DNA of 64,000 nucleotides from positions 2,542,001 to 2,606,000 of the forward strand of contig NZ_JACHBQ010000001.1 in assembly GCF_014200405.1 (NCBI RefSeq). Reading direction: 5' to 3'. A program made the translations under genes and the position numbers. This document shows positions 46,690 through 61,866 of the stretch, piece after piece. The DNA comes from Cryobacterium roopkundense (lineage in GTDB: Bacteria > Actinomycetota > Actinomycetes > Actinomycetales > Microbacteriaceae). Numbering within the stretch: position 1 is the first letter of the stretch; every line of letters starts with the position of its first letter. Below the pieces are notes generated by a model. It was not told where the DNA came from and did no database searches. It saw only the letters and a list, made by a program, of their open reading frames with translations.

Positions 46690-47533
46690 TGTCGATTCCG
46701 TTCAGGTTGGGCAGTATCTCACCGGTGTCGAACTTCTCCAGGAACTGCTTTTCCTCGAAGAAGACGCAGGCGGTCGGATTGAAAATGCAGAAGTCGTCGA
46801 CGATAACACCGCCCCCGGTGGCCTGCGGAGCGACATACTCGAAGATGGCCACACCGAGCTGTGAGCCCCCGCTCTCGACGAGGAGTGGCACCTGGCCGGC
46901 CTGCGCCGCGGGCGGCGTGCTGAATGTCACCTGCGTGTCGCTCACCTTCGTGGTCGACACGCTCGTCTCCCCCACGGTGACGATAGTCGACTCACCGAAT
47001 TGACCGGTCAGCAAGACGATAGTGCCTCCCTCCACACCGCCCTGCGATGGAGTGAAAGACGTGAGCGCAGGCGTGACCTCGGGCGGACGGGTAAGGATAA
47101 AGGCCGTCACTCCGCCGCCGATGATCACCACGGCCGCAACAACGGCCACGATCCACCAGGGGAACTTCCTCACCACCACGGGCGCGACCTCCGGCACCAC
47201 GAGCTGCACGACGAATCCGAGCTCGGCGTAATCTTCGGGGGCCTCGTCCGCGCTGTAGGGAATGAGCTTCACTTGGTAGGTGCCGGGCAGCGCCCCTGTC
47301 GTGTCGAAGGCGACCTCGTATTGCACTGTGGCCCCGGGATCGATCGTGCGCAGCGGCTCCTCGATCGTTGCGCCTGTCGAGCCGGGAAGGCTGTTCGGCA
47401 CACCCACGGGGAATGCCCCCAGCACCACGCGCTCGGGCGCGGCCGAGGCATTCGTCACCGATGCGGTGAGCGTTCCTTTTCCGTCGGTCAGCGCAACGGT
47501 TTGCGAGCTGAGCGTCATGGCCAGTTTCTTCAT
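46679..47533 (-). CDS. Single-pass membrane protein with IPT/TIG-like domain, last gene of the injection-system operon
   Basis: A 284-residue protein without a signal peptide. Residues 1-118 form a beta-rich, Ig-like segment that should be cytoplasmic. Residues about 126-147 (WWIVAVVAAVVIIGGGVTAF) span the membrane. Residues about 154-234 resemble an IPT/TIG domain (SFTPSQGGVEGGTIVLLTGQ), followed by a C-terminal tail with two Cys. With domains on both sides of the membrane it could tether or dock the particle. The function is inferred only from context. Confidence 0.6.
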   Translation of the reverse strand: MKKLAMTLSSQTVALTDGKGTLTASVTNASAAPERVVLGAFPVGVPNSLPGSTGATIEEPLRTIDPGATVQYEVAFDTTGALPGTYQVKLIPYSADEAPEDYAELGFVVQLVVPEVAPVVVRKFPWWIVAVVAAVVIIGGGVTAFILTRPPEVTPALTSFTPSQGGVEGGTIVLLTGQFGESTIVTVGETSVSTTKVSDTQVTFSTPPAAQAGQVPLLVESGGSQLGVAIFEYVAPQATGGGVIVDDFCIFNPTACVFFEEKQFLEKFDTGEILPNLNGIDINQ

Positions 47534-47594: not shown

Positions 47595-48071
47595 TCATAT
47601 CGGGCTCACTTGCAGGATGCAGGCATCAAATCCCGGACAGTCGAAGGTCAGGGAACCACCGGAGCGGCCAACGGTGAGGTCCGTCGAGTCACCCTGCTCC
47701 AGCTTCTGGGCGGCATCCGTTCCCTCGATGAGCATGCTCACGGTGACCTCTCCCGGCGCTGACAGCACGGTGAGCCTTGCCCTTTTCGTCACCGGTCCGA
47801 GGTCGAATGTGCCGCCGAATTCCGCAATCGTGAAGGTGCAGGTCTGCTGCACCTGGATGAGCTGCCCGCTGATGGCACAGTCCCCGTTGCTCAACACCAG
47901 ATCGGTGGTCTCAAGGGCCGCGACCGGACCGATGCCGGCCAGCCCTGACACCGTGGACCCACCCGCCGGGCGGTCGCCTCTGCCGAACCCCACACCCATC
48001 AGGAAGAGCACCAGCACCAGGCCGGCAACCGCGCAGGCGATGATAATCGGCTTGCGATTACTCTCGCTCAT
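47595..48071 (-). CDS. Small membrane-anchored protein of the injection-system operon
   Basis: A 158-residue protein with a short basic N-terminus, one membrane helix (about 9-28) and an exported beta-rich domain containing four Cys (NGDCAISG, QTCTFTI, FDCPGFDACIL) that could form disulfides. I do not recognise a family. Its ATG at 48071 overlaps the end of the upstream tail-protein gene by 14 bases, which places it firmly in the operon. Confidence 0.6.
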   Translation of the reverse strand: MSESNRKPIIIACAVAGLVLVLFLMGVGFGRGDRPAGGSTVSGLAGIGPVAALETTDLVLSNGDCAISGQLIQVQQTCTFTIAEFGGTFDLGPVTKRARLTVLSAPGEVTVSMLIEGTDAAQKLEQGDSTDLTVGRSGGSLTFDCPGFDACILQVSPI

Positions 48072-48627
48072 GGCTGCTCCCGTCTGACAGGCTCGGCGGT
48101 GCGGAGTCGACCACGAGATCGTGCGTGATGTGGGCCGGCTTCATGACGCCGACAATCCGGTGCACTAGGTCGACCTGGCCAGCGGCATCCGCGGGGATAT
48201 GCACGACCACGTGAAAGGCCCCGGGATCGTCGACAACGCCGAAACCGCCGACGCCCGTAGCGAGTTGCAGAAATCTGGCGAGTCCGGCGGGTGTGCCGCG
48301 GCGGGCCGACAGGTCTGCGGCATTGGCGACGAGGTCTCGCTGCCGAGCCGGGTCGACCCCGGATCCGCCGGGCGTCGGACCCGTCAGCCAATCGAGGTCC
48401 ACCCAGCTGGCGAGGTAGGGCACGAGCTGCTCCGGGGCCCGGTACGGGTGCACGAGAGTGTCGACCGCATCGAGCACGTCAAGAACCGGCGTCTGCAAGT
48501 CTGCCGTGACGGCGATCAGCGCCCGCAACGGCGCACTCCGCACGGCGGACACCTGAAAGACCTCCGGCAGGATGCCGAGGAGCAGGGCCTCGGATGGCTC
48601 GGTTTCGGGCAACACAGGCCTAGGCAT
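48058..48627 (-). CDS. Phage tail-like protein, TIGR02242/gpI-like
   Basis: A 189-residue baseplate-associated protein. The motif VLDAVDTLVHPYRAPEQLVPYLASWVDLDW and the following arginine-rich helix match the tail protein I-like family that accompanies contractile injection systems. The C-terminal part (HVVVHIPADAAGQVDLVHR...KPAHITHDLVV) is also typical. In the complex it should help form the baseplate periphery. ATG 48627 overlaps the end of the baseplate J-like gene by eight bases; the longer frame to 48960 is rejected because it would sit inside that gene. Confidence 0.85.
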   Translation of the reverse strand: MPRPVLPETEPSEALLLGILPEVFQVSAVRSAPLRALIAVTADLQTPVLDVLDAVDTLVHPYRAPEQLVPYLASWVDLDWLTGPTPGGSGVDPARQRDLVANAADLSARRGTPAGLARFLQLATGVGGFGVVDDPGAFHVVVHIPADAAGQVDLVHRIVGVMKPAHITHDLVVDSAPPSLSDGSSHERE

Positions 48628-51244
48628 TGGCGCGCACCACCTCGATGCGATGTTCCCCCGAACAGAACAGCCAGGTCGGCGGCAGGGTGATGAAGGTATC
48701 GACGTTTCTGGCCGTGCAGGTGCTCCAGGTGTCGGCTTCATCCGTCGAGCGGAAGATTCCCTCCGGCCCGGCGCCGAGCACGAGCGGCACGCCGTCGGCA
48801 CCCAGGGCACCCGAAACCGACCGCACCGGTTGGAACCTCGCCCGGTCCCGAAGAGGCAGGCCGCAGTTGACATCACGCTGGTCCCAGACGCGTTTCTGCC
48901 CCGCCGAAAGCGGCAGCCGCAACACTCCACCACTCTGAGTGGCGGCGTAGGCGGCGTCACCCGTCACATGCACGCCCCAGCAACTGCCGCCGCCCCACCC
49001 CGCGCCCAGTTCTTCCCACGAGGCCATCAGGGCAGCATCGAACGTGGTGCGGGCGAGGTCATCGATGCGCAGCCGAGCGCACCCGGTGCCCGTACCCTCC
49101 GGCACCGCGCGACCCAGCCACAGGTACGTGGCTGGACCGTCGTATTGCACGGCCAGGCAGCGGATGTCTTCCCCCGCCGCGCGCACGCGCTTGAAGGATT
49201 CCGGTGCGCCCGCCGTGGGTGACATCCACACTCCGGCGGCAGCCTCCGCCGTGATGATGACCCCGGTCTGGCCGCGCACATCGGTGAACGAATCGATGGC
49301 ATAGAAGCCGCGGTCCGGCTGCGCCGGATCGACGAGGTTCTGCACCGGGATGGCGCCCTCGTTGTGAGCGAGCTCATAGAGGCCCTTTTCTCCGGCGAGC
49401 AGGAGCACCGGGCTGCCGAGCCGGTCCACCCAGGCGAGATCGGCGAGCGTGAACCCGAGTTCTGCGCGTCGCAGCCAACTCTCACCGAGGTCGTCGCTCA
49501 CATAGACGCGTGAGCCGTCGCCGGCATCCGTTGCCACGGCGACCATGCCCGGATGCGTGGTAGATGCGCCCTGCCCCACCCGGAAAGGAACTATCGCGCG
49601 CACGTCTTCTCCCGCGAACTGCGCACAGGCCTCCCAGCCGTCCCCGAAGTTGGTGGTGCGAAAGAGAGTGTCGCCTTGGGCGACAAACCACGTGCCGGTC
49701 TGGCCTTCGGCCTGGATGAGGGAGGTCGCGTCGGTGTCGGGCACCTTGTCCAGTTCGAGCCGCACGCGTTCCACGTACTGCACGCCGGGCTCGGATTCCT
49801 CCATTGCCCGGTAGAGGTTGGAAGCACGCAGCGCGCGCCCGAACCCGAAACCGAAGCCGATGCCGCCCGCGCTGCCTGCCGTTCCGTTGGGAAGCGGGTT
49901 GATCGCCTCGCCCAGTCTGCGCACGATCCTCTCCCTGACCGCGACCGGATCCTCGTCGGGACGAACGACCACCCTCGCGTCGACGAGCACTTGCTTGTAG
50001 AGGGCCCAGCGGACCACGGGGGTGGCGCCGATGGTCGCGCGATCGCGAAGGTAGCGGTCGACCTCGGCCCGCACGTTGTCGCGAGCCTGCGCTCCGAGTT
50101 GGTCGAGGGAGATTCCCCCATTAGTTCGGTTGCCGAGGGGAATCTGCGGCACGAGAACGACCTCAACCTCACCCGGACTCGCAAAAGCCCACACCTCGCG
50201 CCTCGTGAGGGCATGAGCCCGCGCAACCCCGCCATGCCTGGCGGCAAGCACCTCGTAGTCGCGGCCGGTCACCGCTCGATCTCGGGACTGAAAGTCCTGC
50301 GGCGCCCTGCGCAACGCATCCTCGAGTGGCTCCTGATCGCGGCCTCCGGTCGCGGGCGCAGGGTTGCTCACCCGAAGACCCGGAAGGGAGCTGCGCAGAA
50401 CGGTCAGGGTGCCCGCCGCAACGTTTCCACGCTCGCCTCCACCGCTTCGAAACCAGGCTCGCACCTGGGCACCGGGTGCGGGAACGGCTGGAACCGGTGC
50501 AATGAATTGATCTCGAGCATCGGTTCCGCCCGCTGCCCGCTCGCTCCACCAAGCGAAAATGACGGTGCCAGAAGATCGGTCGACGCGCACCACGGGCTCG
50601 CCGTCCTCTGCGTCCGCGAAGGCCTCGACCTCGCGGCAAAAACGGAAGGGCATTCCGTCCACAAGCACCGCTTCGCCGCTGGCGAGCGGCGACCCGGAGG
50701 GGAACTCAATTCCGATGCTCAGCCCCGGTCCCGCGACCGCCGGCGAGCTGGGCAGGGTAAAGATCTGACCGGGTCGCCCCGTGCCGACCCCGAGGAGGAC
50801 GGCCTCGACCGGCGTCGAATCCGCCGCTTCGACGGTGACGCTCGTCGCTCCGGCTGCGAGCACCGTGTCGGCGAGGGTACTGAATACCGGCAGCGCGACA
50901 CCGGGCACTCCAGGCGGCGGGCTCACCTGTGTGCCGCGCGGGATCAGCACTTCCGGCCCGTCCCCGGCGGCGCGGGTGAACTCGAGAGTGACCGTGGCCG
51001 CGCTCGGCGGGTACACGGCGGTACCCAGCAGATTGAGGTAGACGGCATAAAGCTTTTCAGGCACCCGATTGAGGCGATACATAAGCAGGTCGGTGAGGTG
51101 GGCGAAGGCTTCCACGAGCACGATGCCCGGGTCATGCACCGAGAGATCGGTCCACTCCGGATCCAGCTGGCGAATACGGTCGCGTGCACTGTCGATGAGC
51201 TCGACGAAGGTGCGGTCGTCGAGATTGGGCACAGGAATGCTCAT
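48620..51244 (-). CDS. Baseplate J-like assembly protein with C-terminal beta-propeller
   Basis: An 874-residue protein. Residues 1 to about 515 match the putative baseplate assembly family of injection systems (TIGR02243/gpJ-like): an N-terminal LDPEWTDLSVHDPGIVLVEA block, then RDRAVTGRDYEVLA and the C-terminal wedge segment. From about residue 517 to the end, repeated blades with Asp-box motifs (FRTTNFGDGW, VYVSDDLGESW, FRSTDEADTW) indicate a BNR/YCF48-like beta-propeller. The propeller would be exposed at the particle rim, where it could contact targets. It overlaps gp25 by four bases. Confidence 0.82.
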   Translation of the reverse strand: MSIPVPNLDDRTFVELIDSARDRIRQLDPEWTDLSVHDPGIVLVEAFAHLTDLLMYRLNRVPEKLYAVYLNLLGTAVYPPSAATVTLEFTRAAGDGPEVLIPRGTQVSPPPGVPGVALPVFSTLADTVLAAGATSVTVEAADSTPVEAVLLGVGTGRPGQIFTLPSSPAVAGPGLSIGIEFPSGSPLASGEAVLVDGMPFRFCREVEAFADAEDGEPVVRVDRSSGTVIFAWWSERAAGGTDARDQFIAPVPAVPAPGAQVRAWFRSGGGERGNVAAGTLTVLRSSLPGLRVSNPAPATGGRDQEPLEDALRRAPQDFQSRDRAVTGRDYEVLAARHGGVARAHALTRREVWAFASPGEVEVVLVPQIPLGNRTNGGISLDQLGAQARDNVRAEVDRYLRDRATIGATPVVRWALYKQVLVDARVVVRPDEDPVAVRERIVRRLGEAINPLPNGTAGSAGGIGFGFGFGRALRASNLYRAMEESEPGVQYVERVRLELDKVPDTDATSLIQAEGQTGTWFVAQGDTLFRTTNFGDGWEACAQFAGEDVRAIVPFRVGQGASTTHPGMVAVATDAGDGSRVYVSDDLGESWLRRAELGFTLADLAWVDRLGSPVLLLAGEKGLYELAHNEGAIPVQNLVDPAQPDRGFYAIDSFTDVRGQTGVIITAEAAAGVWMSPTAGAPESFKRVRAAGEDIRCLAVQYDGPATYLWLGRAVPEGTGTGCARLRIDDLARTTFDAALMASWEELGAGWGGGSCWGVHVTGDAAYAATQSGGVLRLPLSAGQKRVWDQRDVNCGLPLRDRARFQPVRSVSGALGADGVPLVLGAGPEGIFRSTDEADTWSTCTARNVDTFITLPPTWLFCSGEHRIEVVRANA

Positions 51245-51708
51245 GCGGAGCCTCTCTCGGTCGTTCGATCGGCCGTTCCCGGTGCCTGTCCCGACACGGG
51301 CACGCCCACGGCCAGCTCGTCCTCGTGCTGGGTGGCTTTGACCCGATACCGCAGGCGCACCTCGAGCAGGGCCGGGTCTTCCGGTGCCCGAGCCGCATCC
51401 AGTGAGAGAACCGTCACCCGTGGTTCCCAGCGTTGCAGGGCACTTGACACGTAGTGGATGGCGAGTCCGGCGGTTGTGTCGTCGGCCGCAGCGAAGGCCA
51501 GCCGGAACAGGTGGCAGCCGTAGTTCGGTCGGTTAACCCGCTCGCCGGGCCGGGTGCTCAAGAGAAGAAGCACGGCCTGGCGCACTGAGGCGTCTTCCGT
51601 GACGGTGGCGAGGCGGCCGTCAGGAGTGAGGCTGAAACCCGGAGGTCCCGCGGACGCATCGAAATCGGGATGCACGAGCGCGATGGCACGGTATCGGGGC
51701 GCGCTCAT
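51241..51708 (-). CDS. Baseplate wedge protein, gp25/GPW family
   Basis: A 155-residue protein with the gp25 core: VRQAVLLLLSTRPGERVNRP, GCHLFRLAF, and WEPRVTVL, which contains the conserved EPR motif. gp25 caps the first sheath ring on the baseplate. ATG 51708 overlaps the stop of the tip-protein gene (ATGA) and its own stop overlaps the baseplate J-like gene by four bases. The longer frame to 51873 would extend into the tip gene and is not used. Confidence 0.88.
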   Translation of the reverse strand: MSAPRYRAIALVHPDFDASAGPPGFSLTPDGRLATVTEDASVRQAVLLLLSTRPGERVNRPNYGCHLFRLAFAAADDTTAGLAIHYVSSALQRWEPRVTVLSLDAARAPEDPALLEVRLRYRVKATQHEDELAVGVPVSGQAPGTADRTTERGSA

Positions 51709-52043
51709 GTCGACGCCCCCACCAATTGCTCGCCCGGCGAGCGCACCGTGTACTTCACGGCGCCGGGCGGTGTGCCGTCGGTGTACCCCTCCACGGAATC
51801 CAGACAAATGGCATGGCCACCGATGCGCAGGAACGTCGAGTATCCCTTGTGCACCACCAGCGTGTGCGTGCACGGCTTAATATTGACGCCGATGTTAGGG
51901 CACCCGTTGATATCCCGTCCCTGCGGGTCGTTCTCGACGAGCACGGGGGATGCGAGGATTGTGACCCACTCCTGCGATGGCACATTCTTCACGACGCCGT
52001 CATGGCCGCAGCGCACCACTCCCTTTTCAACGAGAACCTTCAT
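51705..52043 (-). CDS. PAAR-like spike-tip protein
   Basis: A 112-residue protein positioned between the VgrG-like spike and gp25, where injection systems encode the spike tip. Cys12, Cys48, Cys58 and Cys80 together with His14, His60 and His77 could bind a metal, as in PAAR tips, although the repeats are not canonical. The first strand (VEKGVVRCGHDG) resembles PAAR-like N-termini. It overlaps both neighbours by four bases. Confidence 0.75.
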   Translation of the reverse strand: MKVLVEKGVVRCGHDGVVKNVPSQEWVTILASPVLVENDPQGRDINGCPNIGVNIKPCTHTLVVHKGYSTFLRIGGHAICLDSVEGYTDGTPPGAVKYTVRSPGEQLVGAST

Positions 52044-53560
52044 GTCGCCTCCTCGAAATCCACGGTCTTGGCGCGCACCTTCATCGCATGGCCTGGCGCC
52101 TCGATCGTGAGGTCGGTCGCGGAATGCAGGCTGAAAAGATCCGGTCCGAGCGACACAGACGACCCGTGGCCGTCTTCCAGACGGATGCTGTGGTCGTCGC
52201 CATCGAGAACGACCCGCTGCCCGTCCGCGGTCGCCACGGTGAAGCGTCGACCCCGAGTGCCGGCCAGGTCCGTGTCGGGAACCTTCTCGGGCCCGAAGAG
52301 CCCGCCGAGAACAACGGCGTCGGCCGGATCCGCTGCGACCAGAAGTACCAGCACGGTGTCACCGGTGTTCGGGAGCAGGACGGCGCCCTTGCCGGTCCCC
52401 GCGCCCTGGGTGAGCACCGGTGCCCAGCCCGTGGTGACCTGCGGGTAACATGCGAGATCCACCTGCACCCGCGCACGCTGCTCGGGGTCTTCGACGTCGA
52501 CGACGAGGCCCAGGGTCGTCACGTCAGCCGGGCGAGAGGTCGCCGGGGTGGCCGGAAACGCGGGCGGTCTCGTCGACACCGTGGTCTCGTATCCGCTGCC
52601 CTGCACGGAGTGCACAACGTCACACACCGTGTACGTGCCCTCGAGGCTGGCCGTGACCCCGCTGATCTTCACTCGTCCGCCCACACGGATGCGCGGATCG
52701 CCCTCGGCCACGAAGACGCCGGTGATCTCGCCCGCTGCCCGCACGTCGAGCTCTGCCTGCGCGAGGTCCGCGGCCGCCGAGTCGTCGACGAGGGTGTCGT
52801 TCTGGCGCAGCAAGGCGCCCCCGCCTCCCACGCTCTGTGGCGCAGCATCGGCTCGCACCCCTGCCCGGGCCCGATTGTCGTCTGCCTCGCCGTGCACGAT
52901 GGCCGCAGAATCAGGATTCCAGCCCGTCACCGAGGCGCTCAGGAATGCGGGTTCCTGGCTGATCTCCAGCTCCGCAGAGTGAAGGGTGGTGCCGAGAACA
53001 AGCTCCACGGGCTCTCCCTCCCCCTCGAGCCCCACGAGCCGCAGGGCTGACTCATCGACGACCGGGTACAGGCCCGCGCGGCGGCTCGCCTGAACGAGCA
53101 GGCTCAGGTCGGAACATGCCAGTTGGTAGGTGCGCGCGGGGCGGCCGGTCCCGCCGACGACGCTGAGCCCGGTTCCAGCGCACAGGGCCACCGCGAGACC
53201 GTTCAGGTCAACGTCTGCGTGCACCCTGGTGAACTGACGTTTTCGCAGCCGGTGCAGGGCGTCGTAGGCGCGCACCCGTATCTCCTCAGAGAGGTCGGCC
53301 CCGTAGCTGTGCTCGACCACGGTCACCTCCCCCACGAACAACGCGCGTCGTACCCCGACGACCTCGACCCGCAGTGCGTCGCCGGGTGCCGGGTCAACCC
53401 GGCGGCCCGCGTCGAGGGTCAGCCACGTGATGCTGCACCGGGTCGGCTGCGCCAGTGCGGCGTGCACTTCGATCGAGGAAACGGATGCAGCTTCGGCCGC
53501 GGTCAGCCGGTCGCGTCCGAGGGTGATGATAATTTCCGGGAGTCCCTGCACCTCTGTCAT
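52040..53560 (-). CDS. VgrG/Afp8-like spike protein
   Basis: A 506-residue homologue of VgrG/gp27-gp5 spike proteins. The N-terminal half is gp27-like (SYGADLSEEIRVRAYDALHRLRK, QLACSDLSLLVQASRRAGLY). The C-terminal half contains the gp5-like OB fold (LVVDVEDPEQRARVQVDLACYP, VLLPNTGDTVLVLLV, VLGGLFG) and a short beta-helix-like tail. It forms the trimeric centre of the baseplate and carries the tip protein. It starts at ATG 53560, overlapping the Afp7-like gene by four bases. Confidence 0.88.
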   Translation of the reverse strand: MTEVQGLPEIIITLGRDRLTAAEAASVSSIEVHAALAQPTRCSITWLTLDAGRRVDPAPGDALRVEVVGVRRALFVGEVTVVEHSYGADLSEEIRVRAYDALHRLRKRQFTRVHADVDLNGLAVALCAGTGLSVVGGTGRPARTYQLACSDLSLLVQASRRAGLYPVVDESALRLVGLEGEGEPVELVLGTTLHSAELEISQEPAFLSASVTGWNPDSAAIVHGEADDNRARAGVRADAAPQSVGGGGALLRQNDTLVDDSAAADLAQAELDVRAAGEITGVFVAEGDPRIRVGGRVKISGVTASLEGTYTVCDVVHSVQGSGYETTVSTRPPAFPATPATSRPADVTTLGLVVDVEDPEQRARVQVDLACYPQVTTGWAPVLTQGAGTGKGAVLLPNTGDTVLVLLVAADPADAVVLGGLFGPEKVPDTDLAGTRGRRFTVATADGQRVVLDGDDHSIRLEDGHGSSVSLGPDLFSLHSATDLTIEAPGHAMKVRAKTVDFEEAT

Positions 53561-54321
53561 CGGGGCTTCTCTCCGAGCGGCGGGATCGACAGTCGTCCCG
53601 CGAAGTGCAGGGGGTCGTCCACGTTGCTGAATTCGAGGATCTGCTTCACGAGCAGCGGCGTGCCGTAGGTCAGCATCGAGATGATCCCGTATTCGCGGGT
53701 CGGGGTCAGCGGCCGCGGCGGCGCCCCCTCCGGGGCGTCGGGAACCAGGGTTTCGAAGCTGCCGTCACCCTGCACGGCCACGGTGTCCACCGGAGGTGCC
53801 GTGAGGTCGACGACCGGAAGTCTCTGGGCGAGCTCGTAATTCTCGCCGCCCTCGTCATCGGCGCTTTGGCCAACCCGCACGAAGACGAGCCGCATCCAAG
53901 AACGCAGAGGGGAACCATCCGCTGCAAACCTGTCGAAGCGCTCGGCGACCTCCGTCACGATACCGGGCATGTCCCACGCGCGCCCCCACAGAAAGTGCAC
54001 CCCGGGCGGCCGGCGCTTCTTGTCGACCTCTGTCGAGTTTTCGGCGAGCTTCCAGATGGGGCGGGTCATTTGACGCACGTCTGTCACCCGCTGGTTGGAC
54101 GGAGCGAGGTCAACGTCGAAGAGCAGGTCGAGCCGCAGCTCGGTGTGGCCGCCTCCGGTGAACAACAGCGGGTCGTCGGCGAGGCCGGCGCCGGTGAGAC
54201 GGCCGCCCGCCGAACGCCGAGGCTCGACACCGGCCGTGCGCGACATGACCACGGTTTCCGGGTTGAGCAGGCAGCCAAAGTGCTCCCCGGTGTTGTCGAT
54301 GAGAAACGCCACCCGTTCCAT
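53557..54321 (-). CDS. Contractile injection system tube/baseplate protein, Afp7-like
   Basis: A 254-residue protein of the CIS tube protein family that links the spike to the tube. Visible family segments: an N-terminal FGCLLNPETVVMSRTAG, the central DPLLFTGGGHTELRLDLLFD, and LRSWMRLVFVRV. The C-terminal region (TYGTPLLVKQILEFSNVDDPLHF) resembles the LysM-like part of Afp7. A single base separates ATG 54321 from the preceding stop (TGACATG), as at the sheath-tube junction. Confidence 0.82.
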   Translation of the reverse strand: MERVAFLIDNTGEHFGCLLNPETVVMSRTAGVEPRRSAGGRLTGAGLADDPLLFTGGGHTELRLDLLFDVDLAPSNQRVTDVRQMTRPIWKLAENSTEVDKKRRPPGVHFLWGRAWDMPGIVTEVAERFDRFAADGSPLRSWMRLVFVRVGQSADDEGGENYELAQRLPVVDLTAPPVDTVAVQGDGSFETLVPDAPEGAPPRPLTPTREYGIISMLTYGTPLLVKQILEFSNVDDPLHFAGRLSIPPLGEKPR

Positions 54322-54322
54322 G

Positions 54323-55579
54323 TCACACCAGGGACTCTTCGACGGCCAGCCGCCGGGCGCGCGCGATGCGTCTCACAACGGCTTCGGTGTTCGGCCGGTC
54401 CTGAGGCGTCGGGCGGGCAGTGGCGAGTTCGGGCCACGGGTGCGGGCTCGCCGCGGCGACGGCAGTACGGGCCGGCCACGCCGAGTGCAACGCGACCGGC
54501 GACAGACCCTGCCGGACTTGCTCGACGCTGCGGTGAGCTGGGGATTCGGCCCGAGAGGCAATCGCGGGGGCAGGAATCGATGCTCTCACCGTCGGTGCCG
54601 GCACGAATACCGGCCGGTGTGCGATATCCCGCCCACGCAGGTGCAGAGCGGGCGCCACGTCGCTTCGGATTGGCTGCCTCACCCTCCTGAGGAGGCTTGT
54701 GCGGTCGTGCACGCCGTCCACGGGCACCGGACGAGGCTCCGCGGCGGCACGCGCGACGGGCGCAGTCGCGGGACCAGGCTCGGCGACAACGGATGCCCCC
54801 GGCTGGCGCCCCGGCGCCGCAACGCCATTCCGGCTGGAGCCCTGCTCCGCTGCGGCACGTTCGGGCCGCGGTCGTGCGGCGCTGGCGCGGTCGGTGACAT
54901 CACGGGAGCCCGTAGCTGTCTCCAAATCGGGACTGTCGCTAGAGTGCGACACCCCTCGCGCGGCACCCGGGCGGGTCGCCGCTGGTCGAATACTCAATCG
55001 GGCAATCCCCGGGGCGAGCGGCCACTGCCTCAGAGACTCCACAGGAGAGACGGTGTCCGGTTCCGGGTTTGCACCGGACAGCAGGCCCGGCGGCCGGTCA
55101 TGATCGGCGACACGTTGCGGGGTCGCGTTCGGTTCGGCGTCGACGTCTCGTGCCGAACGCGCATCGGCTCGCAGGACCGCTCGGGCGCTCGGGCGCCGAA
55201 CCCGGGAGGCCGCTCCCGGCGCAGGACTCTCCCCCACACCCGGTCTAGCACCGTGACCCGCGACATCGCCCACGGGCAAGCCAGGGGTCGGGCTCGGCGT
55301 CACCGTCGCCGCGAGTGCCTGGCTGTGCAGCCCGGCCTCGCGGACTCGGCGAAGCCAATGCTCCGGCACCCCGTCGACCGTGCTCATCCAAGACAGGTCA
55401 GGGTCGGGCCCACCGGCCGGCGCGTCGACCAGCCCCACGGCATCCGTCGCCCTACCGCCACCGTGCGCGAGCGGAGGACTCAGGGCGTCGCCGAGCGCTG
55501 GCGCCGAGTCGACCAATCCTGCCAGCGCGCGCAGGCCCGCGCCGAGGCGTCTACGCAGCAGGCGGGGTCGCGGGAGCAT
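54323..55579 (-). CDS. Pro/Ala/Arg-rich, probably disordered protein of the injection-system operon
   Basis: A 418-residue protein rich in Pro, Ala, Arg, Gly and Ser with few hydrophobic stretches, except for a short amphipathic N-terminus (LLRRRLGAGLRALAGLVDS) and a more ordered C-terminal 50 residues. No family was recognised. It is a real gene by context: ATG 55579 overlaps the tube gene by 29 bases and its stop is one base from the Afp7-like ATG. It occupies the place between tube and baseplate genes where a length-control or assembly factor might sit; that role is speculative. Confidence 0.65.
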   Translation of the reverse strand: MLPRPRLLRRRLGAGLRALAGLVDSAPALGDALSPPLAHGGGRATDAVGLVDAPAGGPDPDLSWMSTVDGVPEHWLRRVREAGLHSQALAATVTPSPTPGLPVGDVAGHGARPGVGESPAPGAASRVRRPSARAVLRADARSARDVDAEPNATPQRVADHDRPPGLLSGANPEPDTVSPVESLRQWPLAPGIARLSIRPAATRPGAARGVSHSSDSPDLETATGSRDVTDRASAARPRPERAAAEQGSSRNGVAAPGRQPGASVVAEPGPATAPVARAAAEPRPVPVDGVHDRTSLLRRVRQPIRSDVAPALHLRGRDIAHRPVFVPAPTVRASIPAPAIASRAESPAHRSVEQVRQGLSPVALHSAWPARTAVAAASPHPWPELATARPTPQDRPNTEAVVRRIARARRLAVEESLV

Positions 55580-56057
55580 CGTCGAGCTTCAGCTGGTCGT
55601 AGGCGAGGCTGAGCGATTCGATCGCCAGTTCTTTGCCGAGGGCATCCAGCGGAGCACCGGACCATTCACACGGCCAGGCACCGATCAGGTTCCAGCGCCT
55701 CACCTCGGCCGATCCGGCGTCGTTGAGCATGGCGAGCGACACGTTGCGGCGCTCGACTGTGCCGTCAACGGCCTTGAAGAGCCACTGCAGCAACTCCTTG
55801 GAATCGGTCATGCCGTAGCGCAGGGTGACCGGCGGGTACTCGACCGGACCTGGCATCGTGCGCACGGCCGCGTGTTCACCGCCTTCCCGCCACAGCAGGC
55901 GTGGAATCACGATTCCGAGACCGTCCACGCGAGTGAAGTGGCCCTGCACCACGCTTTGGATCACGAGTTTGAAGTTGTACGCACGGTAGGGGTCGACCAC
56001 GTTTCCCGGTTGCGCCTGCGGGGGTGGGGTGGCTGCTGTTGCTGCTGCATCGGACAT
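55551..56057 (-). CDS. Inner tube protein (TIGR02241/gp19-like)
   Basis: A 168-residue protein forming the stacked-ring tube through which cargo passes. Family segments: DPYRAYNFKLVIQ near the N-terminus, FTRVDGLGIVIP, and SLSLAYDQLKLD at the C-terminus, the usual ending of Hcp/gp19-like tube proteins of injection systems. Only one tube gene is present, whereas many such loci have two or more. ATG 56057 follows the sheath stop after one base. Confidence 0.88.
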   Translation of the reverse strand: MSDAAATAATPPPQAQPGNVVDPYRAYNFKLVIQSVVQGHFTRVDGLGIVIPRLLWREGGEHAAVRTMPGPVEYPPVTLRYGMTDSKELLQWLFKAVDGTVERRNVSLAMLNDAGSAEVRRWNLIGAWPCEWSGAPLDALGKELAIESLSLAYDQLKLDDAPATPPAA

Positions 56058-56058
56058 G

Positions 56059-57306
56059 TCACGCTCCCAGGTTTTCGATCTCGGTGGTGTCCACCGACTG
56101 CATGAGTTTGAACACGATGAACTCGGCCGGTTTCACGGGCGCGAGCCCGATAATCGTGACGACCCGGCCGGCGTCCCGCACTTCTGGCGGGTTCGTCTCG
56201 GCGTCGCACTTCACGAAAAACGCCTGCTGCGGCGTGGTTCCGAACAGGGCGCCGTCGTGCCAGACGTTCGTGAGGAAGTTGCCGATGTCCCGTCGCAGCG
56301 AGCGCCACAGCTCGTCTTTGTTGGGCTCGAAGACGGCCCAGCGGGTGCCGTCCTCGATGGACTCCTTGATCATGTTGGTCAGCCGCCGCACCGGCACATA
56401 CCGATACTCGCTCGCCTCGGGGGCCTTGGTCCGGGCACCCCACACCCGGATGCCCTCCCCGGGGAAATAGCGGATGCAGTTGACCCCGGCGGGGTTCAGC
56501 ACCTCCTGCTCGCCTCGGCTGATGCGCTGCCGAAGATCGAGCGCACCCTGGATCGGCTCGTTGGCGGGTGCCTTGTGCACCCCACGACTGCTGTCGACCC
56601 TGGCCCAGACCCCGGCGATATGGCCCGACGGTGGTTGGGTGACTCTGAGTCCGGACACCGGGTCGAGCACGACAAGCCACGGTACATAGAACGCTGCGTA
56701 GCCGCCGGGCGACTCCGGCGGGCCCAGGGCGAGCTCAGTGTCGTCCGTCTTGCTTGTTCCTTTGGGCGCGGATGGGGCATCCGCTGCGCCCCCGGTCTTT
56801 GTCGGCACGCCCGAGGTCGCCACCCGGGTGAGCGCCGATACGTCGGGGCCCCAATCTTCGACGCCGTCGAGGATCGCCACGCGGTCCTGCCGCAGCGGAT
56901 GCTCGCAGTGCTCAAGCAGGGCCGCGTAGGAGTCGGCGTCCACGTAGCCCGGAGCCGCCACAATGGAGATGTCGTCGACCTTCTCGAAGTTACGCAGGCC
57001 GGTCGGGTGGGTCGCCGTGCCGAGCAAGGTGCCGTTCGCACCGATGTTCACCACATAGCACCGGCCGCCGCCGTTGTTGAAGAAGCCGTACACGGCGTTA
57101 GAGAGCGGCGTGCCCCCAGTTGCCGTTCCCACATAGGTGTCGACGAACTGGGTCCAGTTGTCAAGCACCACGGTCTCGTCGACCTTGGCGGAGGCATCCG
57201 GTGCAATGCCCACGAACCCGGCGATGCTCGAGTTCACCTGCCCGATGGCGCGGGCTCCACTCGGGACCTCCTGCACGTACACGCCCGGAGCAAGATAGTT
57301 GGGCAT
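56059..57306 (-). CDS. Contractile sheath protein
   Basis: A 415-residue sheath subunit. The N-terminus LAPGVYVQEVPSGARAIGQV and SSIAGFVGIA, and the C-terminal VTIIGLAPVKPAEFIVFKL, are the signatures of eCIS and phage sheath proteins. Its contraction drives the tube and spike into the target. It is the only sheath gene in the window. It lies 32 bases after the cap gene and begins the structural part of the operon. Confidence 0.93.
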   Translation of the reverse strand: MPNYLAPGVYVQEVPSGARAIGQVNSSIAGFVGIAPDASAKVDETVVLDNWTQFVDTYVGTATGGTPLSNAVYGFFNNGGGRCYVVNIGANGTLLGTATHPTGLRNFEKVDDISIVAAPGYVDADSYAALLEHCEHPLRQDRVAILDGVEDWGPDVSALTRVATSGVPTKTGGAADAPSAPKGTSKTDDTELALGPPESPGGYAAFYVPWLVVLDPVSGLRVTQPPSGHIAGVWARVDSSRGVHKAPANEPIQGALDLRQRISRGEQEVLNPAGVNCIRYFPGEGIRVWGARTKAPEASEYRYVPVRRLTNMIKESIEDGTRWAVFEPNKDELWRSLRRDIGNFLTNVWHDGALFGTTPQQAFFVKCDAETNPPEVRDAGRVVTIIGLAPVKPAEFIVFKLMQSVDTTEIENLGA

Positions 57307-57338
57307 GCTGTTCTCCTTTCATTGCTTGAGGTTTCTCT

Positions 57339-57989
57339 TCAGGTGGGCGCCCAGGTCAGCACGAGGGCGGGATCGACGGGTGCGGTCACGAGGCGGGTGA
57401 CGCCCCGAAACTCCACGGTGAATTGCTGGACCGCCTCGAGGCTCGACAGCAGGGTGAACCGCCCTGTCGTATCGCTCGCAACCGAGACCGACGACGCTCG
57501 AGAGCGGATGCTGACGCCAGCGATTCCTCGCCCGTCCGGCCCGACCACCACCCCGCTCAGCCGCCGGCCCACCATCGTCGTGACGTGCACGGGCTCGAGG
57601 ATGGCCGGCCCGCTCGGCTCGGTCAGCCGCAGGGTGACGGGGACCCGCACCAGGAAACCCAGGCCCGCGGCCGAGGAGGCCTCCGGCGTGAGCGGCGCCA
57701 CCGAATACCTGGAGGTGTTTTCCACTGCCGTGAGCATCTGCTCCGCGTTTTCGAGGCTGCGCGGCCCCGTACACGAGACTGCGGCGGAGAGCTCAAGGTC
57801 GAGCACCGGGCCGTCGCGCCGGGAGCGGCCGATTCGTTCGAGGGTCAGGACCCTCACGATGACGGGGTCCGTCGGCACAGCGTCTGTCGACCCCGGGCCG
57901 CCGCCGTCGGAAACCCCTACGGAATCGGGGGCGACAGCTTCGGCGAGTACCGAGACAAGGGCAGACAGGGACGAGCGAACAACGCTCAC
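57339..57989 (-). CDS. DUF4255 (Pvc16/Afp16-like) cap or terminator protein with carboxypeptidase-regulatory-like domain
   Basis: A 216-residue protein. The N-terminal part (VVRSSLSALVSVLAEAV, IGRSRRDGPVLDLELSAAVSC) matches DUF4255, the domain of Afp16/Pvc16 proteins that cap the distal end of the particle. The C-terminal part (SGVVVGPDGRGIAGVSIRSR...TDTTGRFTL-like) is a small beta-sandwich resembling carboxypeptidase regulatory domains. I start at GTG 57989, six bases after GAGG; the in-frame codon at 58028 is within the leader. It is the first gene of the operon. Confidence 0.78.
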   Translation of the reverse strand: MSVVRSSLSALVSVLAEAVAPDSVGVSDGGGPGSTDAVPTDPVIVRVLTLERIGRSRRDGPVLDLELSAAVSCTGPRSLENAEQMLTAVENTSRYSVAPLTPEASSAAGLGFLVRVPVTLRLTEPSGPAILEPVHVTTMVGRRLSGVVVGPDGRGIAGVSIRSRASSVSVASDTTGRFTLLSSLEAVQQFTVEFRGVTRLVTAPVDPALVLTWAPT

Positions 57990-58030
57990 GCTGACCTCGC
58001 TTCCCCGAGTGCCGACCGGAAGATGCAAAC

Positions 58031-58059: not shown

Positions 58060-58101
58060 CGGATGGGTGCCCAGTGACGGGCAGACCGCGCCGCGCGGGA
58101 G

Positions 58102-58107
58102 TACTAT
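58102..58107 (+). promoter_or_regulatory. Candidate -10 box of the first sigma-like unit
   Basis: TACTAT would place the start near 58114, about 37 bases before the small frame at 58151. No good -35 partner is visible. The same role could be played by TATGCT at 60200-60205 before the second unit. Confidence 0.4.
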
Positions 58108-58150
58108 CGCGTCGAGGTTCACTCGTCCGTCTGAGATGTAAGGACGCAAC

Positions 58151-58240
58151 ATGATTGCGCTCATGGAACCAGAGTCCGCACCCACGCGACACTCGCGCAA
58201 GCACGCAGCTCCGTCAGTTCGGGACTTGCATCGTGTGTGA
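58151..58240 (+). CDS. 29-residue upstream reading frame overlapping sigma-like gene 1
   Basis: ATG 58151 lies seven bases after AAGGAC and opens a 29-codon frame, rich in basic residues, ending His-Arg-Val-stop. Its last eight bases overlap the GTG start of the sigma-like gene (58233) in another frame. The second unit has the same arrangement. It may be a leader peptide that couples translation, or the first part of a frameshifted product. Confidence 0.55.
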   Translation: MIALMEPESAPTRHSRKHAAPSVRDLHRV

Positions 58241-58937
58241 CGTTCCCCCGCGCCGACTCCGGCCATCACTTCACCCATCCAGAATCATGCTGGCTGTGTT
58301 GGCCGTGGCCTTGGTCGTAGCGGGCATGTTGCTGAGAGACCCCGGCAGCCCTGGGGTGCTAGGGCTCGGGCTTCTGGGCCTCGGGCTCATCGGCCTCGGG
58401 GCTGCGGTGCTCGTGGCAGCGGTGATGTTTCCCGTCATCAAGGAGTTCGAGTTCGGGTTTCCCAGCGGTGTCAAGATCATGGCCGCCGTCCATGATCGCG
58501 AGGAAGATCTGCGCGCCGCTTTTGCGAAGCAGCGAGGCGACCTCGGTCTCTACACCCAGCTGATGTGCGACGATCCCGCCGTGGCCGCACGCCTTCTCGA
58601 GGCGGCCTGGGAAAAAACGGCCTCGCTGTGGCGCGGCCCCGTGACCGACGATCTGCGAACCTTCGTGCTCTGCGAGTTTGTTGAACTTCTCACTGCTCAC
58701 TCCCGGTGGACCCCATCCGATGATCCCGATGGCACCCGCGCGGCCCCCAACGTCTCGGCCCCGCTGGCGTCTCTCCCCCTCGCCGAGCGGGTGGTCGTCG
58801 TGCTGCGCGAGTTCGCCGGACTGCCTCTCGCCCAGATCGCCACCCTGACGGAGCGGCCCCTCGACGACATCTCCAAGGACCTGCGATCCGCCCGGCGCCG
58901 AGTCGCGCTCATCACGGTTTCGGACGACGAACTATGA
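58233..58937 (+). CDS. Membrane-tethered ECF sigma factor-like protein, copy 1
   Basis: A 234-residue protein. Two N-terminal membrane helices (about 18-34 and 41-69) form a hairpin that keeps both ends inside. Residues about 104-160 (LGLYTQLMCDDPAVAARLLE...RTFVLCEFVELL) resemble ECF sigma region 2. Residues about 178-224 (LPLAERVVVVLREFAGLPLA, then DDISKDLRSARRRV) resemble region 4 with its helix-turn-helix. The GTG at 58233 is chosen because VC-x-VP-x-RR is where similarity with copy 2 begins. It overlaps the Ig-like gene by four bases, as sigma/anti-sigma pairs often do. DNA binding is inferred. Confidence 0.62.
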   Translation: MCDVPPRRLRPSLHPSRIMLAVLAVALVVAGMLLRDPGSPGVLGLGLLGLGLIGLGAAVLVAAVMFPVIKEFEFGFPSGVKIMAAVHDREEDLRAAFAKQRGDLGLYTQLMCDDPAVAARLLEAAWEKTASLWRGPVTDDLRTFVLCEFVELLTAHSRWTPSDDPDGTRAAPNVSAPLASLPLAERVVVVLREFAGLPLAQIATLTERPLDDISKDLRSARRRVALITVSDDEL

Positions 58938-60130
58938 ACGCGCAGACGCGCCGATATCTCCTGGCGCGAGCACAGGAAGCCAGTGAAGAGTTCCCCGCCG
59001 CGATCGAACAGCCTCTCTCCCTGGGCCTGCACCGATACCGCGCTCGCCTCCTACGGGTCTTCGCTGCGAGCGCCGTGCTGGCGGTGATCGTACTCGGCGT
59101 CGTGATCTCGGTGCATCCGACCACCGTCGCGGCTCTGGAAACCCTGTTCCCGGCGTCGTCGACCTCCGAGGCGACCCTGGTTGAGATCTCAGTGACCCCC
59201 GGCGACCTCACAGTGCAGATTGGCGAGCAAGGTCAGCTCACGGCACAAGGCCGCTACAGCGACGACACCACTGTCGACCTGAAAGCCGAGGTGAAGTGGA
59301 CCTCGGCAGACCCGGATGTGGTCGGGGTCGACGACAGCGGGCTCATTGCGGCGATGAACCCCGGCGCCTCCGTGATCACCGCCACGCTGGGCACGATCCA
59401 GGGTTCCTCAGCCGTCACAGTTCTCGCCCCAGGCGCACCGCCCCCCGCGGCTCCAGAGGACGCGGATCCCAGTGGCCCCAAGACCCAAACAGGCATCACG
59501 ATCATCCCCGAGAGCGTGACCCTCGCTCCGCAGGAGACCCAGCAATTGGAAATTCTTGCCACCTTCAGCGATGACACAACAGCGGCCGTCACGGGCACCC
59601 CGCAATGGTCCACCGACAACATGAGGATCGCCCGGGTCGATGAGGCAGGTCTGCTGACGGCAGGCCCGTTCGGCGAAAAAGCACAGGCGTTTACCCCAAT
59701 CGCTCCGTCGGCAACCACAACGGTTCGGGCAGAACTCGACGGTTTCACCGCAGACCCGGTGTCCGTCACCGTCGATCCCCTGAAAAATTTCACCCTCACA
59801 GTGTCCGGGGTCGTCCGTGACCTCCTCCCAGGCGAAACGCTTCAGCTCACGGCCACTCTGTCGGATGGCAAGCAGGAATTCGACGTCACCGACAACCGCG
59901 ACACCTCGTGGACGTGCGGCCCCGAAGAAGTCGCTGAGGTCGACACGTCCGGCGCCGTGACGGCCAACGCGGCGGGCACCGCGGTCATCACCGCTTCCTG
60001 GCGCAGCCTGAATGGCCAAGCCACCGTCGACGTGACTGCGCCCCCCAAGATCCCGGTTCCCGATACTGTGCCCGACCCTCTTCCCAAAGCGCCCGTCGAC
60101 GCTGACGATCCAGTCGTCCCGATTTCCTGA
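58934..60130 (+). CDS. Single-pass membrane protein with three Big_2-like Ig repeats, copy 1
   Basis: A 398-residue protein with a basic N-terminal cytoplasmic part (1-41), one membrane helix (about 42-60) and three bacterial Ig-like repeats outside (about 82-164, 186-281, 286-368; for example KWTSADPDVVGVDDSGLIAA). A Pro-rich linker joins the first two and a Pro/Asp tail ends the chain. Overlap with the sigma-like gene suggests an anti-sigma or sensor partner. No known anti-sigma domain is evident in the short cytoplasmic part. Confidence 0.7.
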   Translation: MNAQTRRYLLARAQEASEEFPAAIEQPLSLGLHRYRARLLRVFAASAVLAVIVLGVVISVHPTTVAALETLFPASSTSEATLVEISVTPGDLTVQIGEQGQLTAQGRYSDDTTVDLKAEVKWTSADPDVVGVDDSGLIAAMNPGASVITATLGTIQGSSAVTVLAPGAPPPAAPEDADPSGPKTQTGITIIPESVTLAPQETQQLEILATFSDDTTAAVTGTPQWSTDNMRIARVDEAGLLTAGPFGEKAQAFTPIAPSATTTVRAELDGFTADPVSVTVDPLKNFTLTVSGVVRDLLPGETLQLTATLSDGKQEFDVTDNRDTSWTCGPEEVAEVDTSGAVTANAAGTAVITASWRSLNGQATVDVTAPPKIPVPDTVPDPLPKAPVDADDPVVPIS

Positions 60131-60199
60131 CCACGCTCGTCCCAGGACGTGATCACGGTCGACGGCGTCGGTATTCGGGCGCACATCCTCACACAGGCA

Positions 60200-60205
60200 T
60201 ATGCT
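60200..60205 (+). promoter_or_regulatory. Candidate -10 box of the second sigma-like unit
   Basis: TATGCT fits TAnnnT and predicts a start near 60212, 32 bases before the small frame at 60244. The 198-base gap after the first unit otherwise shows only the palindrome CGTGATCACG near 60149. Confidence 0.35.
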
Positions 60206-60243
60206 GTCGCGACAACCCTCGACCGCGCAAGGACGCATTTCCC

Positions 60244-60336
60244 ATGACAACAACACCCTCTGTGCCAGGCCGACGTGAAATCCGTGCGGGCGGCTCGCGG
60301 TGGCGTCAACACCGCAGGGGCGCGCGCCGTGTGTAA
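60244..60336 (+). CDS. 30-residue upstream reading frame overlapping sigma-like gene 2
   Basis: ATG 60244 is preceded by AAGGACGCA, also found before the counterpart at 58151. The frame encodes 30 residues rich in Arg and ends Arg-Arg-Val-stop, overlapping the next GTG (60329) by eight bases. The peptide sequences differ between the two copies, but the length, ending and overlap are the same. Confidence 0.55.
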   Translation: MTTTPSVPGRREIRAGGSRWRQHRRGARRV

Positions 60337-61009
60337 GGTGCCGGCTCGCCGCTGGCGGGCGGCGATCCAGCCTTCCCGTGTCACCCTGGCCCTGTTGTCA
60401 CTGGCCCTGATCGTCATGGGCACTCTCATCCACGATCTGACGGGGCTCCTGCTGCTCGGGCTGGGAGCCGTCGCCCTACTGGCAGCCGTCGTGTTTCCCG
60501 TCATCCGAGGCGTGGAATTCGGCTTCCCCACCGGGGTACGAATCTCGGCCGGACTCAGGGACCGTGAGCAGGAACTCCAGGCCGCATTCCAGGCCCAGCG
60601 AGGGGATCTCGGGCTGTACACCCAGCTCATCTGCGACGATCCGGCGCTGGCCAGCGAGTTGCTGGAGGCCGCGTGGGCGCGCACTGCCGCCGTGTGGCGC
60701 GGACCCGTAACGCCGGAACTGCGCACGTACGTGCTGTGTGAATTCGTTCACGTGGCCACGGTGCACGCCCGCTGGAGGGTGACAGAGGCAGGTACCGGGC
60801 CCTCGCCTCACACCGCCGCTGTCGCGGGGGGCGCGCTCTCGGCGCTCCCCCTGCCGGCGAGAATCTCCGTGGTGCTCCGGGAATTCGCCGATCTGCCCAC
60901 GGCCCAGATCTCGTCGCTGACGGGGCGTCCGCTTGCCGAGGTGGTCAGTGATCTGGTGAAGTCCGAAACCGTGCTGGCGAGGTTCGCCTCAACCGGTGAC
61001 GACTCATGA
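60329..61009 (+). CDS. Membrane-tethered ECF sigma factor-like protein, copy 2
   Basis: A 226-residue paralogue of 58233-58937, with membrane helices at about 18-34 and 38-59, a sigma-2-like part (about 94-150; LGLYTQLICDDPALASELLE, RTYVLCEFVHVA) and a sigma-4-like part (about 172-218). The predicted recognition helix reads PLAEVVSDLVKSETV, without the Arg cluster kept in copy 1 (SARRRV), so DNA binding may be altered or lost. It starts GTG TGT like copy 1 and overlaps the following Ig-like gene by four bases. Confidence 0.6.
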   Translation: MCKVPARRWRAAIQPSRVTLALLSLALIVMGTLIHDLTGLLLLGLGAVALLAAVVFPVIRGVEFGFPTGVRISAGLRDREQELQAAFQAQRGDLGLYTQLICDDPALASELLEAAWARTAAVWRGPVTPELRTYVLCEFVHVATVHARWRVTEAGTGPSPHTAAVAGGALSALPLPARISVVLREFADLPTAQISSLTGRPLAEVVSDLVKSETVLARFASTGDDS

Positions 61010-61866
61010 ACACCCACCTGCGACGGCGCCTGCTGGCCGATGCCGCCGTGAATTCGCACGCGAACCCGGCGCACGTCGACCGGGCGCTGCAGTACGGCAA
61101 CAGCCGGTATCGCCGCCGCGTCGCATCCGTTTACGCCGTCACCCTTACGGTATCGGCAATCCTGATGCTCGCCCTGGTTGCGGTTCATCCGGCGGCCTAC
61201 GCCGTGCTGAACAGTCTGGGGGCCGATTCGACAACAACAGCGCCCCTGCCCACGGCGACGAACCTATCGGACACCCCGAACTCCAACATCGTGCTCGCGA
61301 GCATTAGCATCGTGCCGGGTGCGGTGACCCTCGCTGCGGGCGAAACGGCCCAGCTCTCCGTGGTCGGCAATTTCAGCGACGGGGCCAGTGGCCCCGTGTC
61401 AGGCGTTGCCACCTGGCAGTCTGACAACGATACGATCGCGATCATCACCACCGAGGGCGTCGTCACCGCCCTTGTGCCGGACCAGAATGCCACCATCACG
61501 GCGTCGCTGGGCGGGTTCACCGACACGACGACGGTGATCGTGGCGGCGAAGGTTCTCACCCGAATCAGCATCCGCTCCGTGCAATCGAGCTACAACAGCT
61601 TCCAGAAGGACCTCGAAACCGACAGCCAAGCCGGCCTGCCGGTGGGCGGCGAAGCGGCGCTGGTCGCGGACGGAGCATACAGCGACGGAACATCCGGCGC
61701 GCTGGCGGGCGTCACCTGGGCTTCCGACGAAACTGGCATCGCGACGATCGGTGCCGACGGAACGCTGCGCGCCGTCGCCGCGGGCACCGCCCAGGTCACG
61801 GCGTCGCTACAGGGTGTCGTGGGCACCGTCACCATCGATGTCAGCGAAGCCAACGTCGTGGACTGA
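61006..61866 (+). CDS. Single-pass membrane protein with two Big_2-like Ig repeats, copy 2
   Basis: A 286-residue paralogue of the protein at 58934-60130: basic N-terminal segment (1-40), membrane helix (about 41-60), a Thr/Ser/Pro linker, and two Ig-like repeats (about 98-181 and 185-280; ATWQSDNDTIAIITTEGVVT, VTWASDETGIATIGADGTL). It has one repeat fewer than copy 1. It presumably pairs with the sigma-like protein encoded just upstream. Confidence 0.7.
   Translation: MNTHLRRRLLADAAVNSHANPAHVDRALQYGNSRYRRRVASVYAVTLTVSAILMLALVAVHPAAYAVLNSLGADSTTTAPLPTATNLSDTPNSNIVLASISIVPGAVTLAAGETAQLSVVGNFSDGASGPVSGVATWQSDNDTIAIITTEGVVTALVPDQNATITASLGGFTDTTTVIVAAKVLTRISIRSVQSSYNSFQKDLETDSQAGLPVGGEAALVADGAYSDGTSGALAGVTWASDETGIATIGADGTLRAVAAGTAQVTASLQGVVGTVTIDVSEANVVD

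Follow-up and report, generated by a model that had tools for sequence, protein, structure and literature searches.

A membrane-anchored, probable pseudo-sigma protein with an Ig-like membrane partner in Cryobacterium roopkundense: a candidate envelope-sensing pair, at times adjoining a contractile injection system

Introduction

Does a protein that carries a sigma-like region behind two membrane segments still act as a sigma factor, and what is the role of the Ig-like membrane protein encoded directly after it? This question is raised by two adjacent two-gene units of Cryobacterium roopkundense (assembly GCF_014200405.1), located in a stretch of 64,000 nucleotides of contig NZ_JACHBQ010000001.1 (positions 2,542,001 to 2,606,000, forward strand), which is called the window here and whose first letter is position 1. 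In each unit, gene 1 encodes two hydrophobic segments followed by a region resembling an extracytoplasmic function (ECF) sigma factor, and gene 2 encodes a single-pass protein with immunoglobulin (Ig)-like stretches. Judged from sequence comparison, gene 1 is probably a membrane-anchored pseudo-sigma protein: its sigma-2/sigma-4 homology is true, but the family as a whole has lost the hallmark residues and the linker length of functional ECFs. The pair probably represents a novel type of envelope sensor, and we propose that it acts as an envelope-sensing switch that is at times tied to a contractile injection system (CIS).

Together, the two tandem units span 58233-61866, and gene 1 and gene 2 overlap by exactly 4 bp in each. 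This layout, including the coordinates and the overlaps, had been described correctly by a first-pass annotation made from the letters alone. The features are as follows:

58233..58937, + strand: unit A gene 1, GTG start, 234 amino acids, probable membrane-anchored pseudo-sigma protein
58275..58448, + strand: two-helix membrane hairpin in unit A gene 1 (residues 15-33 and 47-72 by hydropathy and model), topology inferred
58485..58712, + strand: sigma-2-like domain of unit A gene 1, approximately residues 85-160, without the core-binding Gln and the region 2.4 Arg residues
58752..58928, + strand: sigma-4-like helix-turn-helix domain of unit A gene 1, approximately residues 174-232, in the family mostly without the basic recognition-helix residues
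58934..60130, + strand: unit A gene 2, 398 amino acids, single-pass, N-terminal tail of about 42 residues, one membrane helix, three Big_2 stretches
60329..61009, + strand: unit B gene 1, second probable pseudo-sigma protein, 226 amino acids from a conserved GTG, open reading frame (ORF) open from 60275
61006..61866, + strand: unit B gene 2, 286 amino acids, single-pass, two Big_2 stretches

For unit B gene 1, the GTG at 60329 is the more likely start compared with the opening of the ORF at 60275.

Sigma homology and loss of sigma hallmarks in gene 1

The Pfam profile Sigma70_r4_2 matched gene 1 with E-values of 4.8e-5 (unit A) and 1.8e-3 (unit B), neither of which reaches the Pfam cut-off. 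The NCBIfam profile of the SigE family, TIGR02983, gave 5.1e-6 for unit A (26.5 bits) and 2.8e-9 for unit B (37.1 bits, residues 96-236, covering both sigma domains), under the curated cut-off of 141.55 bits. Eight TIGR02983 matches, none over the cut-off, are present in the bacterium's own genome, two of them being the gene 1 proteins of the units. The initial description of two membrane segments followed by sigma-2- and sigma-4-like regions is thus borne out, with profile matches that were obtained but lie below the cut-offs. Neither gene 1 protein has a receiver domain in Pfam (E 1).

Protein searches, each of which scored just the 8000 candidates with most words in common, gave 67 distinct proteins including the window's own two (31 in one search and 66 in the other, largely overlapping), so the family is more than a chance occurrence. 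One relative of unit A gene 1, P0002, is 91% identical. An alignment (A2) was built from the two window proteins and 54 of the 67 returned proteins, with 13 truncated or near-identical ones omitted. These 56 rows plus five from genomes (three of which repeat a protein already included) make up the 61 family rows that we compared with 14 ordinary ECF sigma factors from related genomes (16 loci tried, two without a match).

The Asp and Gln of region 2.2 contact core RNA polymerase, and residues of regions 2.4 and 4.2 contact the promoter. The core-binding Gln was found in none of the 61 family rows and in all 14 ECF sigma factors, and the Asp/Glu of region 2.2 in 19 family rows compared with 14 of 14. 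At the promoter-contact positions, Asp/Asn was kept in 2, Arg/Lys in 3 and 6, Lys/Arg in 7 and Arg in 2 of the 61 rows, whereas the ECF sigma factors keep them, in the same order, in 13, 14, 12, 13 and 10 of 14 cases; the contrast of 3/61 with 14/14 concerns the region 2.4 Arg/Lys and that of 7/61 with 13/14 the recognition-helix Lys/Arg. Over all seven hallmark positions, family members retain zero, one or two (25, 33 and 3 rows), while the ordinary ECFs retain seven or five (10 and 4 rows). The mean net charge of the recognition-helix columns is -0.5 in the family and +2.3 in the ECFs. The linker between sigma-2 and sigma-4 has a median length of 17 residues versus 29 and is therefore about 12 residues shorter; in ECF sigma factors this linker enters the active site of the polymerase (PMC8103513).

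As a control, columns that are hydrophobic and conserved in ECFs kept their residue class at 0.65 on average (25 columns), compared with 0.33 for polar ones (8 columns), and the core is thus better kept than the polar surface. Nine further members likewise lack the Gln and carry the WRGP motif of the family together with Cys147 (one of them, L085, is probably identical with P0027). Both the core Asp and the Gln are retained at each of the seven ordinary ECF loci that are nearest within the class. In a tree rooted at the midpoint, the 61 family rows fall on one side of a single branch (100/99, stem length 1.74). The predicted fold of gene 1 is closed. Several family members carry names from JGI of the type "DNA-directed RNA polymerase specialized sigma24 family protein", which may mislead on function.

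Conserved cysteines were also observed among the 61 rows (numbering of 58233-58937, residues 2, 112 and 147): an N-terminal MCxxP-type motif in 42, Cys112 in 57 and Cys147 in 59, several of the rows without the N-terminal motif being truncated. A redox or metal role of these residues is possible.

The Ig-like partner

The profile Big_2 (PF02368) matched three stretches in gene 2 of unit A (1.4e-23) and two in that of unit B (3e-12), in agreement with the single membrane helix and the two or three Big_2-like repeats recognized at the outset. Pairing is universal in the set of 17 units (two in the window, two in G046, one each in G032 and G501, ten in a second family and one in Arthrobacter sp. 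StoSoilB13): the gene directly after gene 1 encodes an Ig-like single-pass protein in 17/17 units, so that the two genes stay together in the relatives instead of lying apart. Big_2 is significant in all 17 gene 2 proteins, and one partner (L089) has a PASTA domain in addition (9.8e-15). The overlap is 4 bp in 15 of these units; for the remaining two, the script placed the start 4 and 13 bp past the stop.

Among the first eight pairs, the N-terminal part of gene 2 aligns without gaps, and the mean identity amounts to 0.48 for gene 1, 0.41 for the 43-residue tail and 0.32 for the ectodomain. The structural model of gene 2 is weak (predicted local distance difference test 70.6, predicted template modelling score 0.34), with the tail modelled as two helices at low confidence; its Ig domains match modules of the surface and S-layer proteins LigA, SbsC and intimin. 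Class II anti-sigma factors consist of short cytoplasmic helices clamping sigma-2 and sigma-4. The length of the gene 2 tail fits this class, and the helices that would do the clamping are those modelled at low confidence.

Distribution and the neighbouring contractile injection system

Carriers of the pair number 3 of 57 genomes in the genus, 1 of 398 in the sample of the window's family, 10 of 197 in the second family and 1 of 121 in a third family, with samples that overlap one another. In the order sample, 3 of 396 genomes scored over 200 bits, and two more matches at 43-45 bits are ECF-like; the class sample of 335 genomes contained one carrier, the other seven matches at 1e-12 being ordinary ECFs. 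Viral contigs yielded 26 pattern matches and no confirmed relative, and a plasmid collection gave one record with a relative, Arthrobacter StoSoilB13. A viral or plasmid origin was rejected on this single plasmid record and the viral contigs, a phage collection lying outside the search.

A CIS gene cluster lies directly upstream of unit A on the opposite strand:

48058..58028, - strand: CIS cluster, head-to-head with unit A, with Tail_P2_I, baseplate J, gp25, spike, CIS_tube, gp19-type tube and sheath genes
57339..58028, - strand: gene counted within this cluster

Three Cryobacterium genomes have the pair between the CIS cluster and an ATP-binding cassette (ABC) transporter, with two, two and one units. 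In G1204 and G1192 of the second family, the pair again faces this CIS cluster head-to-head, the sheaths being 64-71% identical, and on its other side are different genes, which in G1192 were recognized by eye as flagellar. Altogether, the pair adjoins a CIS in 5/15 carriers from two families, a third of all carriers, and in 7/17 units. Within the genus, a sheath gene is present in 3/3 carriers versus 1/54 other genomes (Fisher p 1.4e-4, which is only a guide because the genomes are related). Counting sheaths of any kind, 5/11 carriers of the second and third families have one, including G678 whose sheath shows 33% identity only, versus 1/20 non-carriers (Fisher p 0.013, with 20 of the 187 second-family non-carriers taken in). 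Sheaths at least 64% identical to that of the window occur in six genomes, five of which have the pair beside the sheath, a count that favours carriers because all second-family carriers but few non-carriers were searched.

Proposed mechanism and its alternatives

We consider it fairly likely that gene 1 is a membrane-anchored pseudo-sigma protein, that the tail of an Ig-like receptor holds it, and that its output bypasses RNA polymerase. Each unit would then form a two-protein membrane signalling complex. Gene 1 would contribute an ECF fold of the SigE type, fixed in the membrane by a hairpin of two N-terminal helices so that both termini lie inside. This fold would have lost its polymerase and promoter determinants and serve only as a protein-binding module. 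Gene 2, as the fixed partner, would clamp the sigma-like domain with its short cytoplasmic tail in the manner of a class II anti-sigma factor and expose, beyond one membrane helix, an Ig-like stalk (once also with PASTA). The stalk may sense the state of the envelope and thereby shift the tail on the pseudo-sigma protein, so that a surface for a further cytoplasmic partner would be exposed or hidden. Where a CIS adjoins the pair, this partner would probably be the CIS particle or its control.

Several observations weigh against this reading. The hallmark positions were picked from the comparison itself together with general knowledge, the linker at L083, which belongs to the seven nearest ECF loci, measures 21 residues and so lies within the range of the family, and the tree program warned of long branches meeting. 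The closed form of gene 1 is not specific to anti-sigma complexes, since SigG1 alone matches equally well, and the SigmaE-RseA, SigK and AlgU-MucA complexes align with the gene 1 model over one domain only; furthermore, AlphaFold could favour compact packing. A class I anti-sigma domain is N-terminal, has four helices and exceeds 50 residues (PMC7406223), whereas the gene 2 tail has about 42 residues and no Pfam anti-sigma match. A comparison of the tail with the tails of SigE-type partners by hhalign gave probabilities of 12.8 (membrane helix included) and 2.4 (tail only), hence no significant profile match; common ancestry, which appears likely by eye, is therefore not claimed. When residues 1-85 of unit B gene 2 served as the query of a database search, the protein itself and P0069 (83% identical) were the only matches; the contig of P0069 is as long (6873) as the one that carries P0002. 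As to the CIS, 10/15 carriers had no CIS gene near the pair (tblastn 1e-8, 14-25 kb read), and Cryobacterium G023, with the same synteny, has the CIS and no unit, its two flanking genes lying close together. The pair is thus no exclusive CIS component, and its absence from the G023 locus also speaks against an essential one. A sheath is present in 8 of the 398 genomes sampled from the family, and the pair is missing from all seven whose sheath shows 40-60% identity; the link between pair and sheath fades with looser sheath kinship.

A more specific version of the proposal, tentative and on the unlikely side, is that the pair is an envelope receptor controlling the CIS without transcription: a cell-wall signal received by the Ig/PASTA stalk would let the sigma fold, as a membrane-bound docking or trigger module, license firing or assembly of the particle. 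Elsewhere, other local effectors may take the place of the CIS, such as the products of a Trypco2-CHAT protein gene and a trypsin-like gene, each found once as the next gene downstream.

Among the alternatives, a decoy comparable to PhyR is unlikely but partly compatible with the favoured reading. The pseudo-sigma protein would compete at the membrane for an anti-sigma factor, either the tail of gene 2 or another one, and thereby free a separate, genuine ECF. According to PMC8103513, the sigma-like domain of PhyR has the right ECF structure with degenerate promoter and core regions, and gene 1 shares this degeneration. In contrast to PhyR, which has a receiver domain and titrates NepR, gene 1 has no receiver, is anchored in the membrane and comes with a membrane partner of its own. 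Moreover, no orphan sigma factor was identified as a target, none of the TIGR02983 matches of the own genome exceeding the cut-off, and the fixed pairing suggests that the ligand of the tail is gene 1 itself.

Quite unlikely is a structural envelope or adhesion pair without signalling, whose stalk would act as an adhesin or as a spacer in the wall and whose sigma-like domain would be no more than an anchor in the cytoplasm. Such a role would suit the ectodomain, with its likeness to LigA, SbsC and intimin modules, but gene 1 is better conserved than the ectodomain, the tail is free of gaps, and the CIS neighbourhood suggests an inward function, although none of these points excludes an anchor role. 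Very unlikely, and rejected as the best reading, is a working tethered ECF released by proteolysis, with gene 2 as anti-sigma factor and sensor, as in IutY or as proposed for factors of the ECF52 type: the sigma homology is genuine, the gene order resembles that of sigma/anti-sigma pairs and tethered ECFs are known (PMC8999054), but the core-binding Gln, the region 2.4 and recognition-helix basic residues, the positive charge of the recognition helix and the full-length linker are lost across the family. The surface-sensing module suggested in the first-pass annotation remains plausible, without the working ECF in need of proteolytic release.

The membrane-anchored pseudo-sigma protein held by gene 2 resembles several known systems in part. 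SigE-family ECFs (TIGR02983-like) and their partners share the sigma-2/sigma-4 fold and the two-gene order, and at most inspected loci the partner has an N-terminal tail of 35-45 residues and one membrane helix, as in gene 2. Those sigma factors are soluble and keep the polymerase and DNA residues, in contrast to the anchored gene 1, which has lost them. CnrH of the class II anti-sigma pair CnrH/CnrY is likewise a functional soluble sigma factor and differs from gene 1 in the same way. Membrane-fixed ECFs have precedents in ECF36, ECF48/52/53 and IutY, whose single chains combine membrane helices with a sigma domain (PMC8999054). The sigma factor and the anti-sigma part are fused in these proteins, and DUF2275 and 3-4 N-terminal helices occur in some members of ECF36, whereas gene 1 has two helices, no in-chain anti-sigma part, lost sigma residues and a separate Ig-like partner. 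Tethered ECFs and a pseudo-sigma protein (PhyR) are thus each already known; their combination, together with a constant Ig-like receptor and a CIS that recurs in the neighbourhood, did not turn up in searches of the open-licence literature, the main ECF classification being outside this scope. Should the proposal hold, a sigma factor now serves in signalling at the membrane without acting in transcription, paired with an invariable Ig-like receptor and outside the alphaproteobacterial case of PhyR. Actinobacterial CIS would then gain a second candidate membrane control module besides CisA, the membrane protein on which contraction of the Streptomyces CIS depends (PMC12237407).

Neighbouring genes and upstream regions

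CisA resembles gene 2 in being a bitopic protein of an actinobacterial CIS locus with a cytoplasmic N-terminus and an extracytoplasmic C-terminus, and differs from it by its position downstream of the baseplate genes and its solute-binding-like outer domain (PMC12237407). Its position is better matched by another gene of the window:

46679..47533, - strand: TIG-domain single-pass membrane protein, downstream of the CIS baseplate genes

The CIS-cluster proteins of this kind consist of an N-terminal domain, one membrane helix and TIG or Big_2 domains and follow the baseplate genes; by analogy they are possible counterparts of CisA, the likeness being one of position and layout only. They occur twice in MLB-32 (L043, 6329-7183 and 7396-8118) and, in a Big_2 version, in G1192 (L101, 7549-8607). 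This G1192 homologue, 56% identical over the first 161 residues and located directly beside the pair, has Big_2 domains (5.4e-23) of the kind present in gene 2 instead of TIG, so that the CIS-linked membrane protein and the partner of the pseudo-sigma protein share their outer module in that locus. A multi-helix membrane protein at 45742-46689 (+ strand), which has no Pfam match, stands beside the CIS cluster and is kept in three other Cryobacterium loci and in G1192.

On the other side, an ABC-2 exporter pair (61945-63773, + strand) adjoins the units in Cryobacterium. Two genomes from a single second-family genus have relatives (55-61% identical) at a distance of about 5 kb from the pair; nothing is concluded from this, because ABC genes are common. 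In two carriers without a CIS beside the pair, other genes come next after it: in G678 a trypsin-like gene (Trypsin_2 2.9e-5, just below the cut-off; L065, 11674-12621), which was not found beside the pair in the same-genus carriers G1179, G1211 and G1261, and in G1239 a Trypco2-CHAT gene followed by a weakly matched alpha/beta-hydrolase (L096, 2803-4995 and 1348-2730). Bacterial conflict systems pair Trypco2 with trypsin, and a caspase-like peptidase with alpha/beta-hydrolase (PMC7159879).

Two short ORFs upstream of the units are suggestive of leaders:

58151..58240, + strand: possible 29-codon leader ORF, ending inside the start of unit A gene 1
60244..60336, + strand: possible 30-codon leader ORF, ending inside the start of unit B gene 1

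Their start contexts are similar, a 21-codon counterpart exists in MLB-32 and perhaps a 16-codon one in one G046 unit, and none was seen before the other G046 unit or in G501 and G678. The stop is partly forced by the start sequence of gene 1, GTGTGTRA. No shared promoter motif is claimed, as the regions upstream of gene 1 align poorly outside Cryobacterium.

Units A and B are approximately 52-54% identical in gene 1 and 27% in gene 2. Given that unit B gene 1 is 70% identical to the single copy of Cryobacterium MLB-32 versus 54% to unit A, the duplicate units are old, and "tandem duplicated", as they were first called, describes their layout and not recent copies. In G046, about 80 bp are near-identical upstream of both units (L042), whereas the two units of the window differ there (58029-58232), which points to separate duplication or conversion events.

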